Shown here piece by piece: positions 7,044 to 14,047 of a stretch of DNA of 53,607 nucleotides (within the stretch, counting starts at the first letter, position 1; each line of letters begins with the position of its first letter). Location: NCBI GenBank assembly GCA_020426005.1, contig JAGQQW010000010.1, positions 1-53,607 on the forward strand, read 5' to 3'. Position numbers and translations under genes: made by a program. The notes below the pieces were generated by a model. That model saw nothing but the letters and a program-made list of their open reading frames with translations. It did no database searches and was not told the DNA's origin. Source of the DNA: Planctomycetota bacterium (GTDB lineage Bacteria > Planctomycetota > UBA1135 > GCA-002748355).

Positions 7044-8342
7044 ATGGCAACGATTCGTCCGATCTCCGCCAACTCCACCGAAGCCAAGGTCGTCGACCTG
7101 AGCACGCGGATCTTGGAGACGGTCAAGTCCATGATCGGGGGCGATCGTAACGAGTCCGAGGCCGATTTCGGGCACTTGCTCGACCGCGTCAAGGACCTTT
7201 TCGGGCGACGCCACACGCTGACCGCGCCGGGGGGCGAGACCAAGGACATGCTGACCGAGGTGCTCTTCGGTCGCGTGATCCGGGGGTTCACCGAGTTCTA
7301 CGAGAACGCCGATATCAGCGGCGATCCGCGGAAGGCCGCGGAGTTCTTGCTCGGGACGGTGCTCACGGGTTCGGCTCTCGCCGAGTTCGCACACGTGATC
7401 GACCGCGTGCTGATGGAGGAGGGTGCGCCCAAGGATTACCACCTCGCGGGTCGCGCCGACTTCATCTCGATGGACGAGCTGCTGCAGCTCCTCGCGTCGG
7501 GCAAGCACACGGGGCAGCTTTCGTTGCAGAACCCCGAGGCGCGCCTCGATATCTGGTTCAAGAACGGGTTGATCGCCTTCATCGACCCACACTGCTTGCG
7601 CCAGAGACTGATCCAGGGACGCGGCCTCAACCGGTGGCGCGAGATCCCACCGGACTTGTTGCTCGAAGCCAACGAGATCCGCGGCACGAACGGGACCCCG
7701 GTCCTGCTCACGCTGCACGAGCGCGGCTTCCTCAAGTCGGACGAACTGCGGGATCAACTGCGCAACCTCGGGTTCGAACAGATCTACGCCTATCTGCAGG
7801 ACGGCAAGCACTGTGCGTTTGGCTACACGGCGATGGAAACGCTGCCCGCCTTCGTCGAGGAGCATCACTGCGGGATGCCGGTCACGCCACTCTTGCTCGA
7901 GGGGCACAAGCGGATCGACGACTGGCGACGGATCCAGCGTGTCTTCCCGGATCTCGACGCGCCGATCGAGCCCACGCCCGACATGTACATGAAGATCGGG
8001 CAGCTCTCGCTCGATGTCGTCGAGATCAAGGCGCTCACGCTCGTCGACGGGATGAACAGCTTCCGCGATGTCGCATCGCAGACCGGCCTGAACAACTTCG
8101 ACCTCGGCATGATGTTCTGCGGCTTCGCCCGCGATGGCGTGATCGTGCCGCCGGGTGGCACGGATGCGCTGTTCGACGACGAAGAGCTCAGTCTCGAGGA
8201 GTCGATGGACGCGGCGGCGCTCGCGCTCGATGCCAACGAGGCGCTGGACGCGATTCCGGACAGCTTGGACCAGGTGTTCGGGACCGACGACGACGGGTTC
8301 GGCCTCGGCTACACGAAGGCCGCGCGCAAAGACGACGCCTGA
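7044..8342 (+). CDS. DUF4388 (PATAN) domain protein
   Basis: A 432-residue soluble protein with no signal peptide. Residues about 135-180 (ADFISMDELLQLLASGKHTG, then WFKNGLIAFIDP) fit the DUF4388/PATAN domain, often found with two-component receivers and GTPases in delta-proteobacteria and Planctomycetes. Residues 275-300 (MPVTPLLLEGHKRIDDW) are also typical of these proteins. The segment around 315-375 (QLSLDVVEIKALTLVDGMNS) looks like a small winged-helix-like repeat also seen in this group. The C-terminus is acidic. No receiver, kinase or GTPase domain is present, so this is a stand-alone member whose partner is unknown. A signalling or scaffold role is inferred from the family only. Confidence 0.8.
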   Translation: MATIRPISANSTEAKVVDLSTRILETVKSMIGGDRNESEADFGHLLDRVKDLFGRRHTLTAPGGETKDMLTEVLFGRVIRGFTEFYENADISGDPRKAAEFLLGTVLTGSALAEFAHVIDRVLMEEGAPKDYHLAGRADFISMDELLQLLASGKHTGQLSLQNPEARLDIWFKNGLIAFIDPHCLRQRLIQGRGLNRWREIPPDLLLEANEIRGTNGTPVLLTLHERGFLKSDELRDQLRNLGFEQIYAYLQDGKHCAFGYTAMETLPAFVEEHHCGMPVTPLLLEGHKRIDDWRRIQRVFPDLDAPIEPTPDMYMKIGQLSLDVVEIKALTLVDGMNSFRDVASQTGLNNFDLGMMFCGFARDGVIVPPGGTDALFDDEELSLEESMDAAALALDANEALDAIPDSLDQVFGTDDDGFGLGYTKAARKDDA

Positions 8343-8549: not shown

Positions 8550-10238
8550 ATGCGCCTTCCTCTCACGCTCCCGTCCCTCTCTCTCATGACGCTGCTCTGT
8601 GTCTCGGCAGCAGCGGCGCAGAATCCTGCCCAAGCCGAGAAGAGCAACCCAGGCTGGCTCGGGGTCATCGTCGAGGGTCGCCGCGGCGAGGCGTCGAAGA
8701 TCGTCGAAGTCGATGCCGGTTCGCCTGCCGCGCATGCCGGTCTCGCGGTCGGAGACGTGGTTCGTGCGGTGGATGGCGCAGAAGCGGGGGACGTCGATGC
8801 GTTCCTCAGCAAGATCGCGAAGAAGCAGGCCGGCGCGCGGGTCGTGTTGACGATCGAGCGCGGTTCCGCCAAACGCGACCTGCCCGTGATCCTCGGCGAA
8901 CGGCCGGACGTTGCCGCAGCACGCAAGGCCGCGGAGAAAGCCGCTGCCGCGAAAGCCGCTGCCGCGAAGGCCACTGCCGCGAAGGCGGCTGCCGAAAAAG
9001 CTGCGGCAGCAAAGGCCTCCGCCGAAAAGGCTGCCGCGCAGAAGATCGCAGCTGCAAAGGCTGCCGCCGAGAAAGTCGCTGCCGAGAAAGTCGCCGCCGA
9101 GAAGGCCCGTGCGGCCGAGGCGGCAGCACGCGAAAAAGCGCGAGCCTCCGCTGCAAGAGCGGCCGCAGCCGCAGAGGCTGCGCGCAAAGCTTCCGAATCC
9201 TCGGCCAAGCAGCAGGCAGAGCAGGCTGCACGGCAGTCCGGCCAGGCCTTCCTCGGCGTCACGCTCGATCAGCGATCCGGCGACGACGTCGCCATCGCGC
9301 AAGTGACTCCGAAGAGCGCTGCACAGAACGCACGGCTACAGCCGCGCGATGTCGTGCTCGAGATCGATGGCAAGCGTGTTCGGACGACTGAAGACGTTGC
9401 CTCGCACATTCGTTCGAAAAAACCAGGCGATGCGGTCGTGCTCTCGATTCTGCGCGATGGCAAGAAGATCCGAATCGATGCGACGCTAGGCACCCGTCAA
9501 GGAGCGGTCGCTGCGCGCGTGCCGACCGCGGTCGACGCAAGCGGCGAGCAAGCGCGCCTCGAACTCGAGCGTGCACGTGAGGCGCTTGCTCGTGCGCGCG
9601 CGAGCGCGGCCGAAGCGGCTGCCGTGAAGGAACGCTCCACGAAAGAAGAACCGAAAGAGCCGGCTCCGGAACGCGAAGTCGAACGCGCCGCGCCCAAGGC
9701 GAGCGAGATCGCGTGGGGCAACGAGCTCGAAGCCGCCGTCCGAAACGCGAAGAAGAGCGGCAAGTCCGTACTCGTCGTCTTCACCGCCGCATGGTCCGGT
9801 CCGTGCCGGATGCTACTCGCGGGTTTCGAGCGTCCCGAAGTCGCACGACGCCTTGCCGCGTTCGAGGCGGTACGCATCGACGTCGACGAGAAGGAAGCCA
9901 TCGCGGACGCGTACGACGTGGATTCGATCCCCTACGTCCTCGCGATCCGTCCGGACGGCGAGAAGTCGTCGTTCACGGGCTATCTCGGCGCCAAAGAGCT
10001 CGCCGCATGGCTCGATGGCGTGGAACCTCGTGCCGGCAAGTCCAAGGCCGGCGCACAGGCCAAGGCACCGGTTGCAGCGGTTCCACAACCACGCGGTGTG
10101 GACGAACCTTCGAGAGCGTCGAGCGACGACATCGCCGATCTGCAGAAGCAGTTGCGCGAACTCGTCGAAGCGCAGAACCGTATGCGCGAACAGCTCGACC
10201 ACCTGCTCGAGCTGGCGCGCCGAGAGGGCAAGCGCTGA
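8550..10238 (+). CDS. Exported PDZ - Ala/Lys helix - PDZ - thioredoxin-like protein
   Basis: A 562-residue exported protein. The signal peptide is MRLPLTLPSLSLMTLLCVSAAAAQ. A first PDZ domain (about 34-118; GWLGVIVEG, SPAAHAGLAVGDVVRAVDG) is followed by an Ala-rich region in which Lys recurs every fifth residue from 130 to 185, then more Ala/Arg helix to about 230. A second PDZ domain spans 233-315 (AFLGVTLDQ, SAAQNARLQPRDVVLEIDG). A charged helical linker leads to a thioredoxin-fold domain at about 385-490. The active site is WSGPC (415-419), so the first cysteine of the usual CGPC pair is serine. The C-terminus (525-560) is a short coiled coil. With one cysteine, dithiol exchange is not expected; binding, mixed-disulfide or isomerase-type chemistry is possible. 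Neighbours give no pathway. Confidence 0.85.
   Translation: MRLPLTLPSLSLMTLLCVSAAAAQNPAQAEKSNPGWLGVIVEGRRGEASKIVEVDAGSPAAHAGLAVGDVVRAVDGAEAGDVDAFLSKIAKKQAGARVVLTIERGSAKRDLPVILGERPDVAAARKAAEKAAAAKAAAAKATAAKAAAEKAAAAKASAEKAAAQKIAAAKAAAEKVAAEKVAAEKARAAEAAAREKARASAARAAAAAEAARKASESSAKQQAEQAARQSGQAFLGVTLDQRSGDDVAIAQVTPKSAAQNARLQPRDVVLEIDGKRVRTTEDVASHIRSKKPGDAVVLSILRDGKKIRIDATLGTRQGAVAARVPTAVDASGEQARLELERAREALARARASAAEAAAVKERSTKEEPKEPAPEREVERAAPKASEIAWGNELEAAVRNAKKSGKSVLVVFTAAWSGPCRMLLAGFERPEVARRLAAFEAVRIDVDEKEAIADAYDVDSIPYVLAIRPDGEKSSFTGYLGAKELAAWLDGVEPRAGKSKAGAQAKAPVAAVPQPRGVDEPSRASSDDIADLQKQLRELVEAQNRMREQLDHLLELARREGKR
8940..9104 (+). repeat. Coding pentapeptide repeat (AxxxK), 15-base period
   Basis: Eleven consecutive five-codon units inside the PDZ-thioredoxin gene encode Ala-rich pentapeptides each ending in Lys (residues 131-185), e.g. 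AAAAK, ATAAK, AAAEK, VAAEK. The bases vary mainly at third positions, so this is a protein-level repeat and not a fresh DNA duplication, though near-identical GCTGCCGCGAAGGCC-type units occur. A five-residue period does not match a heptad coiled coil; it suggests a rigid single helix or a Lys-lined, polyanion-binding spacer between the PDZ domains. Confidence 0.85.
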
Positions 10239-11699: not shown

Positions 11700-12728
11700 T
11701 TAGACGACCACGTCGTGATCGAGGCTCGGGCGTAGCGCATCGAGCGACGGGTTGTCCGTCCTGAGCGTGCAGACCGTGGTCAGCGAACCGCCGCCCTCGG
11801 TCGCGCGAGCGCTCGCGAGCACGCACTTCGCGGTCGCGACGGCGTGCTGCCGGTTGGTCGAGGACGTCGCCTCGAGTGCGCGCACGTATCCATCGAGCGC
11901 GTCGATCACGAGCAGGACGTGGGATCCACGTTCGACGAGCCGCTTGGCGCGCTCGAGAACGAGTCTCATCGCCCGAGTCTGACTCTCGGGCGTCGTCATG
12001 TCGTCACTGACGACGACGAAGTCTCCGCCCTCGCGATAGTGCTGGCCAGCCTGCGGCCGGTGATCGAGAACGAGCGTCAAAGTTTGGATCATGGCCAACT
12101 GTGTGGCGGCTCTTTGGATGCTCCGGGTCAGGAGCGTGACTTGCTCCGGGTCCCCTCGAAGAACCATGCGCTGACCGAGGAGCAATCCGTGTTGCCGATC
12201 GAACTCACGGAGGCCCTTGTTGCCGGCTTTGCCGAGACGCAAGGGTTCGTGCGGACACGTTGCGGTGAGTTCCTCGAAGAGAAGTCGCTCCCCTGGCTTG
12301 TGCGGGACGGCTCCCTCCACGTCGTGGATCTTGAGCATTGCGAAGTTCGCTTCGTGCCCGCGCGGTGGCCGCAGGGTGCCGCGGACCATGTCGCCGGTCC
12401 TGAGGGAGCACCGCTGCACCTGGCTCGGCGAAACGTAGAAATCGTCGACGTCGGGAACGAGGTCCTTGGACGGATTGCGCAGGAATCCGAATCCATCGGG
12501 CAGGACTTCGAGCATGCCTCCACCGACGATGCTGCGACCAGTCGCTGCGTGTCCGCGCAAGAGCGCGAGGAGCATCTTGGCTCGTGTCGGTGGTTCGGGT
12601 TTGTCCCACCCCGCGCCCTGTAAGCGCGTTTGGAGGTCGATTGCGGAGAGGTGTTGGATTGCTGTGACGTCGAAGAACGCACCACGGTGGTCTTCGCCGT
12701 CTCTTGAGTCCAGGGTCGACTCGGTCAT
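11700..12728 (-). CDS. Rho-like protein: intact RNA-binding half, degenerate truncated ATPase
   Basis: A 342-residue paralog of transcription termination factor Rho. Residues 24-62 resemble the Rho N-terminal helical domain, and 67-138 match the Rho primary RNA-binding (cold-shock) domain, including MLEVLPDGFGFLR, DDFYVSPSQVQRCSLRTGD and VRGTLRPPR. The ATPase half still aligns to Rho: GQRMVLRGDPEQVTLL (185-200) lies where Walker A (APPKAGKT) should be, LDHRP (221) for LIDERP, LERAKRLVERGSHVLLVIDALDG (258-280) around Walker B, and ATEGGGSLTTV (309-319). The P-loop Lys-Thr and the catalytic Glu of DERP are gone. The protein stops before the R-loop and arginine-finger region (Rho is usually about 420 residues). 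It cannot be an ordinary translocase. The start ATG 12728 follows a C-rich leader. Confidence 0.85.
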   Translation of the reverse strand: MTESTLDSRDGEDHRGAFFDVTAIQHLSAIDLQTRLQGAGWDKPEPPTRAKMLLALLRGHAATGRSIVGGGMLEVLPDGFGFLRNPSKDLVPDVDDFYVSPSQVQRCSLRTGDMVRGTLRPPRGHEANFAMLKIHDVEGAVPHKPGERLLFEELTATCPHEPLRLGKAGNKGLREFDRQHGLLLGQRMVLRGDPEQVTLLTRSIQRAATQLAMIQTLTLVLDHRPQAGQHYREGGDFVVVSDDMTTPESQTRAMRLVLERAKRLVERGSHVLLVIDALDGYVRALEATSSTNRQHAVATAKCVLASARATEGGGSLTTVCTLRTDNPSLDALRPSLDHDVVV

Positions 12729-12985: not shown

Positions 12986-13669
12986 TCAGTCGTGCGTTGC
13001 GTCTTCGCCGGCGGTGCGCGAGCGCATGGACTCCACGACGTCGCGCACGGCCGCCTTGGTTGCGTCGAGGTCGCCATCGTTCGGTACGATGCGATCCGCG
13101 CGTCGACGCTTCTCGTCGATCGATAGTTGCTGTCGCTCGCGGCGTTCCCAATCCGCGATGTCCATGCCTCGCGCTTCGGCGCGCTTTCGGCGGACCGTAT
13201 TCGAGGCGTCCACGAAAAGGACGATGTCGCAGAGCTCGTCGTAGCCGCTCTCGAAAAGCAGCGGCACGTCGAGCACGAGCGGCACTCCATCACGTCGCGC
13301 CGTCGCGATGCGCTCACGGAACTTCGTGCGGATGCGCGGGTGGATGCGAGCCTCGAGTCGAGCGAGCAACGCCGAGTCGGCGAACACGCGATCCGCGATC
13401 CGGCGCCGATCGATGCGTGTTCTGCGGTTGCCGTCGTCACTGCTTTCGATCAGGACCGCGGGACCGAAGACCTCCACGAGCCACTCGATGGTGTCCGGCT
13501 CCTCGAGGACCGCATGGGCTTCGCGGTCGGCATCGAGGACGACGAATCCCGCTTCTTCGAGCAGGCGCGCGACCGTCGACTTGCCCGATGCGATTCCCCC
13601 GGTGAGGCCGACGATGAGCGGCGGTTCGGGAGTGCCGCCGGGTGGGGGGGCCGGAATGCTGGCAGGCAT
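12986..13669 (-). CDS. coaE: Dephospho-CoA kinase
   Basis: Last step of coenzyme A synthesis: ATP-dependent 3'-phosphorylation of dephospho-CoA. The 227-residue protein begins MPASIPAPPPGG at ATG 13669 and carries the P-loop GLTGGIASGKST at about 20-31. It then has the family strings VLDADREAHAVLE, RIHPRIRTKF and VPLVLDVPLLFESGYDELCD, and ends with the RRRADRIVPNDGD segment. Length and motif order are as usual for CoaE, apart from a Pro-rich extension of about 15 residues at the N-terminus. The open frame upstream to 14731 is antisense to the next gene and is not coding. A 257-base gap separates its stop from the Rho-like start. Confidence 0.95.
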   Translation of the reverse strand: MPASIPAPPPGGTPEPPLIVGLTGGIASGKSTVARLLEEAGFVVLDADREAHAVLEEPDTIEWLVEVFGPAVLIESSDDGNRRTRIDRRRIADRVFADSALLARLEARIHPRIRTKFRERIATARRDGVPLVLDVPLLFESGYDELCDIVLFVDASNTVRRKRAEARGMDIADWERRERQQLSIDEKRRRADRIVPNDGDLDATKAAVRDVVESMRSRTAGEDATHD

Positions 13670-14047
13670 CGCGTCAGAGTAGCGTGAACCCCCCGGATTC
13701 TCGCGACGTGCATGGGCCGTCCGCGCAGGATCCTGCGGCGTGGTCGACGCTTCCCGTTGCGGTACCCGAATCGGGCCCCGAGCCACTCCGGGCAGCTTGT
13801 TGCGTCCCGGCTTGTTTCGCCGCAGGGGAGCCGTAAGATCACGAGCCGTCGTAAGTCTGGCGAGAGAGCGATTTTCCTGGTATCTCGGACGGCGCGGACG
13901 GCTTCTTCGGGAATCTTGTGAAGAGGTCACGCACCGGTCGGAATCGTCGGGATAGACTTCCCAGGCGCTGAACACCGCCCCCCGTAGGCCGTCGTAGCGA
14001 TCGACGTGCCGCATGTCCCGAGATCGAACTCCCCCTCCTGGAGGCAA
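13670..14047. other. Divergent intergenic region between coaE and the BRCT-like membrane protein
   Basis: 378 bases without a convincing gene. It should hold the promoters of both divergent genes. At its right end is CCTCCTGGAGG (14034-14044), a small palindrome whose right half, GGAGG, is the probable ribosome binding site of the next gene, so pairing could mask it. I see no sigma-70-like promoter pair I would defend and no RNA gene. Confidence 0.5.

Follow-up and report, generated by a model that had tools for sequence, protein, structure and literature searches.

A motor-dead Rho, derived from the standard coaE-linked Rho of a planctomycetal lineage and apparently kept under selection

The closest described system is the Rho protein of Escherichia coli (TIGR00767 and NF006886; PDB 5jji, 6xas and 8ptg), built of N-terminal helices, an OB domain and a RecA-like core. 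Roles have been assigned to its residues K181, T185, R212, E211, D265 and R366 (PMC11718236; PMC8828861), R366 being the Arg finger that acts on the ATP of the neighbouring subunit (PMC11718236), and the catalytic residues of Rho are highly conserved even in divergent members (PMC8828861). In mycobacterial Rho the R-loop lysine is altered, and activity is weak (PMC8828861). Two proteins that are not derived from Rho are known to act on it: Rof (YaeO), which blocks the primary RNA-binding site (PMC11018607), and Psu, which clamps open Rho rings (PMC11718236). No description of a Rho pseudoenzyme was found in the literature searched, most subscription papers lying outside its scope.

In the window analyzed here, a stretch of 53,607 nucleotides from a Planctomycetota genome, the gene at 11700-12728 codes for a protein that has the N-terminal helices, the OB domain and the RecA-like core in common with E. 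coli Rho, and the coaE-rho locus in common with the working Rhos of the phylum. Its R-loop lysine departs from the norm, as does that of mycobacterial Rho. Unlike E. coli Rho, it has no Walker A, catalytic Glu, Q-loop, R-loop, Arg finger or C-terminal tail. It shares the Rho core with the short-form Rho paralogues (paralog_Rho2, NF041509), scoring 71.8 bits against a cut-off of 628, and it would share with Rof and Psu the outcome, a restrained Rho, only if its role were that of an antagonist. The features of the locus are as follows, with residue numbers referring to the 342-residue protein:

12989 to 13687, minus strand: coaE, the upstream neighbour (Pfam CoaE, E 3e-39).
11700 to 12728, minus strand: coding sequence of the motor-dead Rho, 342 aa (ORF; NCBIfam Rho, E 4e-44; AlphaFold pLDDT 93.2).
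12543 to 12668, minus strand: N-terminal helices, residues 21-62 (model helices 21-25, 29-39 and 49-62).
12303 to 12530, minus strand: OB/cold-shock RNA-binding domain with the primary RNA-binding site, residues 67-142 (PF07497).
12132 to 12155, minus strand: Walker A destroyed, GDPEQVTL standing where Rho has PPKAGKT (residues 192-199; alignments).
12054 to 12065, minus strand: lost catalytic Glu, residues 222-225, DHRP in place of DERP (alignments).
11889 to 11909, minus strand: what remains of Walker B, VIDALDG (residues 274-280), with its Asp but without the R269 counterpart (alignments).
11703 to 11753, minus strand: C-terminal end common to both species, residues 326-342 (alignment, model and downstream search).

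The ORF runs from an ATG at 12728 to a stop at 11700. The NCBIfam Rho profile matches residues 25-325, Pfam Rho_RNA_bind (PF07497) is found above its cut-off (E 3e-22), and, among solved structures, E. coli Rho chains match best by sequence (E about 1e-38). The scores stay far below the thresholds for a functional Rho (151 bits against 315 for NF006886; 146 against 509 for TIGR00767); despite this, homology to Rho, as judged from these sequence matches, is certain. AlphaFold predicts the structure with confidence (mean pLDDT 93.2, pTM 0.91), and the best fold matches of the model in the PDB are all Rho (TM-score 0.87). In the model the RecA-like core forms a single compact domain, the last element of which is a strand, and the P-loop, the Q-loop, the R-loop and the C-terminal tail are missing. 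The N-terminal helices are the counterpart of the Rho N-terminal helical bundle and align with E. coli Rho from residue 19 onwards; a Pfam profile search gave no match to Rho_N.

Residues are numbered here as in E. coli Rho, a numbering checked on an aligned gammaproteobacterial Rho; that of the R-loop is uncertain, as the R-loop of the gammaproteobacterial reference is expected ten residues lower. In the alignments, Walker A reads GDPEQ-VTL, K184 and T185 both being gone. E211 is replaced by His (the sister species has DQRP), R269 is replaced by Gly, the Q-loop and the R-loop, which form the secondary RNA site, are both deleted, and the protein stops short of the Arg finger R366 and of the C-terminal tail. 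The counterparts of D210, R212 and D265 are still present. In the primary site, the GFGFLR motif is present, and F62, F64, R66, D78, Y80 and E108 are kept; Y110 is replaced by Asn and F89 by Cys, in the window Rho as well as in the copy of the sister species, changes that would alter the C-specific pocket. An earlier note, made from the DNA letters of the window, had read the gene as a truncated Rho paralogue with a dead ATPase (P-loop Lys-Thr, the Glu of DERP and R-loop lost) and an intact RNA-binding half. Truncation and motor loss are both borne out, the Rho-like ORF ending before R366; the RNA-binding half retains its OB domain and most of the primary site, but with Y110 and F89 changed it is not fully intact.

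Over residues 326-342 the last strand of the core is kept, the R-loop is deleted and the Arg finger is absent. No remnant of a C-terminal Rho part was detected downstream of the gene in any frame, in the window species or in the sister species, which points to a clean truncation rather than a frameshift; as the sister species also has the same end, a frameshift or a misassembly was ruled out. Promoter and terminator scans found nothing.

The motor-dead gene lies directly downstream of coaE, on the same strand. Hereafter, the coaE-linked Rho is designated 'a' and a divergent second Rho 'b'. The neighbourhood of coaE and 'a' recurs in sampled genomes through the order, coaE is present at 27 of the 28 Rho loci sampled from the rest of the phylum, and it is also found near Rho in named contigs of Phycisphaera, Kiritimatiellales and Chlamydiae. 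Thus, the gene occupies the standard position of Rho and, on this positional evidence, is the orthologue of the coaE-linked Rho of the phylum, the ancestral 'a' copy, and not a stray duplicate. A phage or mobile origin was considered and rejected, given the absence of a relative in viral contigs and the full synteny with the sister species. A search of named GTDB genome contigs for an orthologue of the motor-dead Rho returned ordinary Rhos only.

For genus g1, to which the window species belongs, one other genome was examined, that of the sister species G001. It carries the same dead Rho, with the same end point, 54-56% identity and no stops, in a region that is syntenic over 17 kb. The two genes differ by a dN of 0.435 and a dS of 1.27 (NG86), giving a dN/dS of 0.34, a value to be read with two species only, synonymous sites near saturation and a simple substitution model; the ratio is 0.28 in the N-terminal and OB part as against 0.40 in the dead ATPase part. 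Neutral evolution simulated to the same divergence at fourfold sites leaves 16-17% identity and about six stops. CoaE is 55% identical in the same pair of species, so the constraint on the dead Rho, at 54%, is about the same as that on the adjacent enzyme gene. Together, the simulation and the dN/dS rule out a recent pseudogene, and the sequences support the view that the dead Rho has been shaped by selection rather than by decay. This is what had been proposed beforehand: identity is far above the neutral expectation, the comparison of the ATPase half (0.40) covers the two species of the genus, and the orthologues show no random stops or frameshifts. Elsewhere in the window, the gene at 7044-8342 (plus strand) codes for a DUF4388 protein that is 91% identical between the two species of genus g1, above most of its neighbours, and the gene at 8550-10238 (plus strand) for a protein in which two PDZ domains are combined with an Ala/Lys-rich linker and, at the C-terminus, a thioredoxin-like domain.

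A total of 154 genomes of the order were searched (a search at the class level gave the same number). Two of its families are considered here: f1, which includes genus g1, and f6, with 34 genomes. Of the 34 f6 genomes, 32 yielded a Rho of the coaE-linked type, with a readable Walker A in 31, and none of these has K184, which is Arg in 24 of the 31. T185 is kept in 8 of 31 copies, E211 in 10 of 30 and the R-loop Lys in 2 of 29, and R269 is lost in all copies but one. R366 is kept in every f6 copy in which the column is present (28/28), and the primary site is well preserved (E108 in 32/32, F62 in 29/31, F64 in 30/31, R66 in 31/31 and D78 in all); the cis-acting D210 and D265 are retained as well. 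The model of one dead f6 copy (G026) has secondary structure up to the C-terminus (pLDDT 86.3). At f6 loci such as L005, L012, L014 and L063, the lysine is replaced mostly by arginine and not by varied residues, and a subset has DERPEE; binding of ATP without hydrolysis is therefore conceivable there. Within f1, the copies of genus g1 and of G004 are dead and those of G003, G005, G006 and G007 are intact. Outside the dead copies, K184 is kept in all 35 other 'a' copies sampled and in 28 of 28 controls from the phylum, and GKT or GKS in 80 of 80 named Rhos. In G007, two very similar pieces of a coaE-type Rho lie at contig ends (L042, G007:C180; L048, G007:C169), possibly reflecting strain variation or a recent duplication.

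The dead copies of f6 also appear to be constrained. In the six pairs for which a neutral expectation could be computed, identity is 0.52-0.88 as against an expected 0.20-0.32. For two f6 pairs dN/dS is about 0.8 over whole stop-to-stop ORFs, and 0.51 and 0.70 over the Rho-homologous part; for genomes of such very high GC as those in these two pairs, the neutral simulation is a better guide. The dead copies can be read in one unbroken frame over the Rho-homologous part; in three f6 matches a single stop appears, and this only on extension with a longer query.

In the Rho tree, all dead f6 copies form a single clade (99/100), and the three dead f1 copies (99/99) group with the intact f1 copies (88/85). 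The coaE tree likewise has f6 as one clade (97/97) and places the f1 rows, dead and intact, together, if weakly (72/35). In the tree of 'b', G004 lies beside G006 and not beside G001, which raises the possibility of three losses. Constraining all dead copies together gave a p-AU of 0.09, so that the Rho data by themselves do not reject this topology, in tests where long branches are in play; given the grouping of dead with intact f1 copies, a single origin is nevertheless not favoured. From these trees, the motor was most likely lost at least twice. The sequences extend the earlier note in three respects: the dead Rho is the ancestral coaE-linked copy rather than a spare one, the same loss runs through a second whole family, and in that family the trans-acting Arg finger has been retained.

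A 'b' Rho is present in most genomes of the order. That of the window genome is visible only as its last 164 codons, at a contig edge. The search for another Rho, suggested beforehand, thus succeeded as to presence and reached a C-terminal fragment as to sequence, which rules out the motor-dead Rho as the only Rho of this genome. The fragment is 97% identical to the 'b' of the sister species, in which the motor residues are intact, and from this we infer an intact Walker A in the window species as well. K184, E211 and R366 are kept in 24 of the 24 'b' copies sampled; E108 and Y110 are absent and F62 is mostly replaced. No helical N-terminal domain aligns in 'b'; at L035, L037-L041 and other loci, a basic N-terminus rich in Arg and Lys takes its place. 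Over its C-terminal part, 'b' has a dN/dS of 0.028 between the window and sister species, and is far more constrained than 'a'. With an intact motor and a non-canonical primary RNA site, 'b' is thus a separate kind of Rho paralogue.

We conclude that the gene truly codes for a Rho whose motor is dead, that it descends from the lineage's standard Rho and that selection has preserved it. As to what it does, the most likely answer, at a little under an even chance, is that it binds RNA without acting as a motor and in connection with the live Rho; a motor would then have become a regulator that binds RNA. The ancestral coaE-linked Rho no longer has the residues that hydrolyse ATP and drive translocation, yet it persists under selection; the motor would be supplied by 'b'. 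The OB domain of 'a' has retained the greater part of the canonical C-specific primary site, which is missing from 'b'; it would capture C-rich nascent RNA, and the captured RNA would steer where the 'b' motor loads, with 'a' as an accessory or partner subunit. The full-length dead copies of f6 could even take part in mixed rings, where their Arg finger would serve the adjoining subunit; for the window Rho, a mixed ring is unlikely because R366 and the C-terminal tail are lost. A motor-dead 'a' with its RNA site kept, and a 'b' with the reverse, fit a split into RNA-reading and motor subunits. However, 'b' is without the canonical primary site even where 'a' is a working motor, so this complementarity did not arise with motor loss; nor is the f6 pattern cleanly one of cis residues lost and trans residues kept, since D210 and D265 remain, and the retention of R366 may be structural.

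The dead Rho could instead be, as the earlier note suggested, an antagonist or antiterminator: by sitting on C-rich, rut-like RNA or by forming dead assemblies, it would keep active Rho from terminating. In favour of this, the RNA-binding domain is kept without a motor, and blocking the contact of RNA with the primary site of Rho is an established route of inhibition, that of Rof (PMC11018607). But 'b' has no canonical primary site and so may not compete for the same RNA, mere competition has no need of the R366 retained in f6, and the loss of the C-terminal parts from the window copy speaks against poisoning of rings. The retention of R366 in f6 points to partnership with a live Rho as much as to antagonism. 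We regard antagonism as possible though doubtful, and an RNA-capture partner of the live Rho as at least as likely. A role as a general RNA-binding protein, with the fold reused outside termination (RNA chaperone, translation or mRNA stability), would suit a compact, well-predicted fold stripped of its translocation parts, with the N-terminal and OB part as the more constrained half; this we hold to be unlikely, as in f6 conservation spans the ATPase core up to the Arg finger, beyond the needs of an RNA tether.

It is also conceivable that the coaE-linked Rho, its place in termination taken by 'b', became a slow relic under weak and fading constraint. Decay is graded within f6, and three genomes, G002 (L261), G023 (L262) and G133 (L263), have coaE with no 'a' Rho beside it, so that 'a' can disappear altogether in the two families with motor-dead copies; moreover, 'b' is 97% identical, over the C-terminal part compared, in the pair in which 'a' is 54% identical. 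Yet the Rho-homologous frame is uninterrupted, identity greatly exceeds the neutral level and is similar to that of coaE, and dead copies are spread across many f6 genera, so the dead state is old; we consider such a relic improbable. That the motor still works through other residues is hardly credible, the counterparts of D210, R212 and D265 notwithstanding, in a protein with no GKT or GKS at the P-loop and no catalytic Glu, Q-loop, R-loop or Arg finger.

The preferred reading, an RNA-binding partner of the live Rho, has a bolder form, which we put forward as speculative and rather unlikely in its entirety: the Rho of the order would be a hetero-oligomeric, two-part factor, in which an 'a' that reads RNA, and in f6 bears a trans-acting Arg finger, is paired with a 'b' that serves as the motor and has a non-canonical RNA site, and in genus g1 'a' would have been trimmed to a ring-independent RNA-capture factor. 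Rho is treated as a homohexameric motor (PMC8828861). With an ancestral Rho that has lost its motor, most likely more than once, and that selection has retained alongside a second Rho, this lineage would allow a test of whether termination can divide RNA recognition and translocation between two proteins, and the dead 'a' is a naturally occurring Rho pseudoenzyme in which the regulation of termination could be studied.
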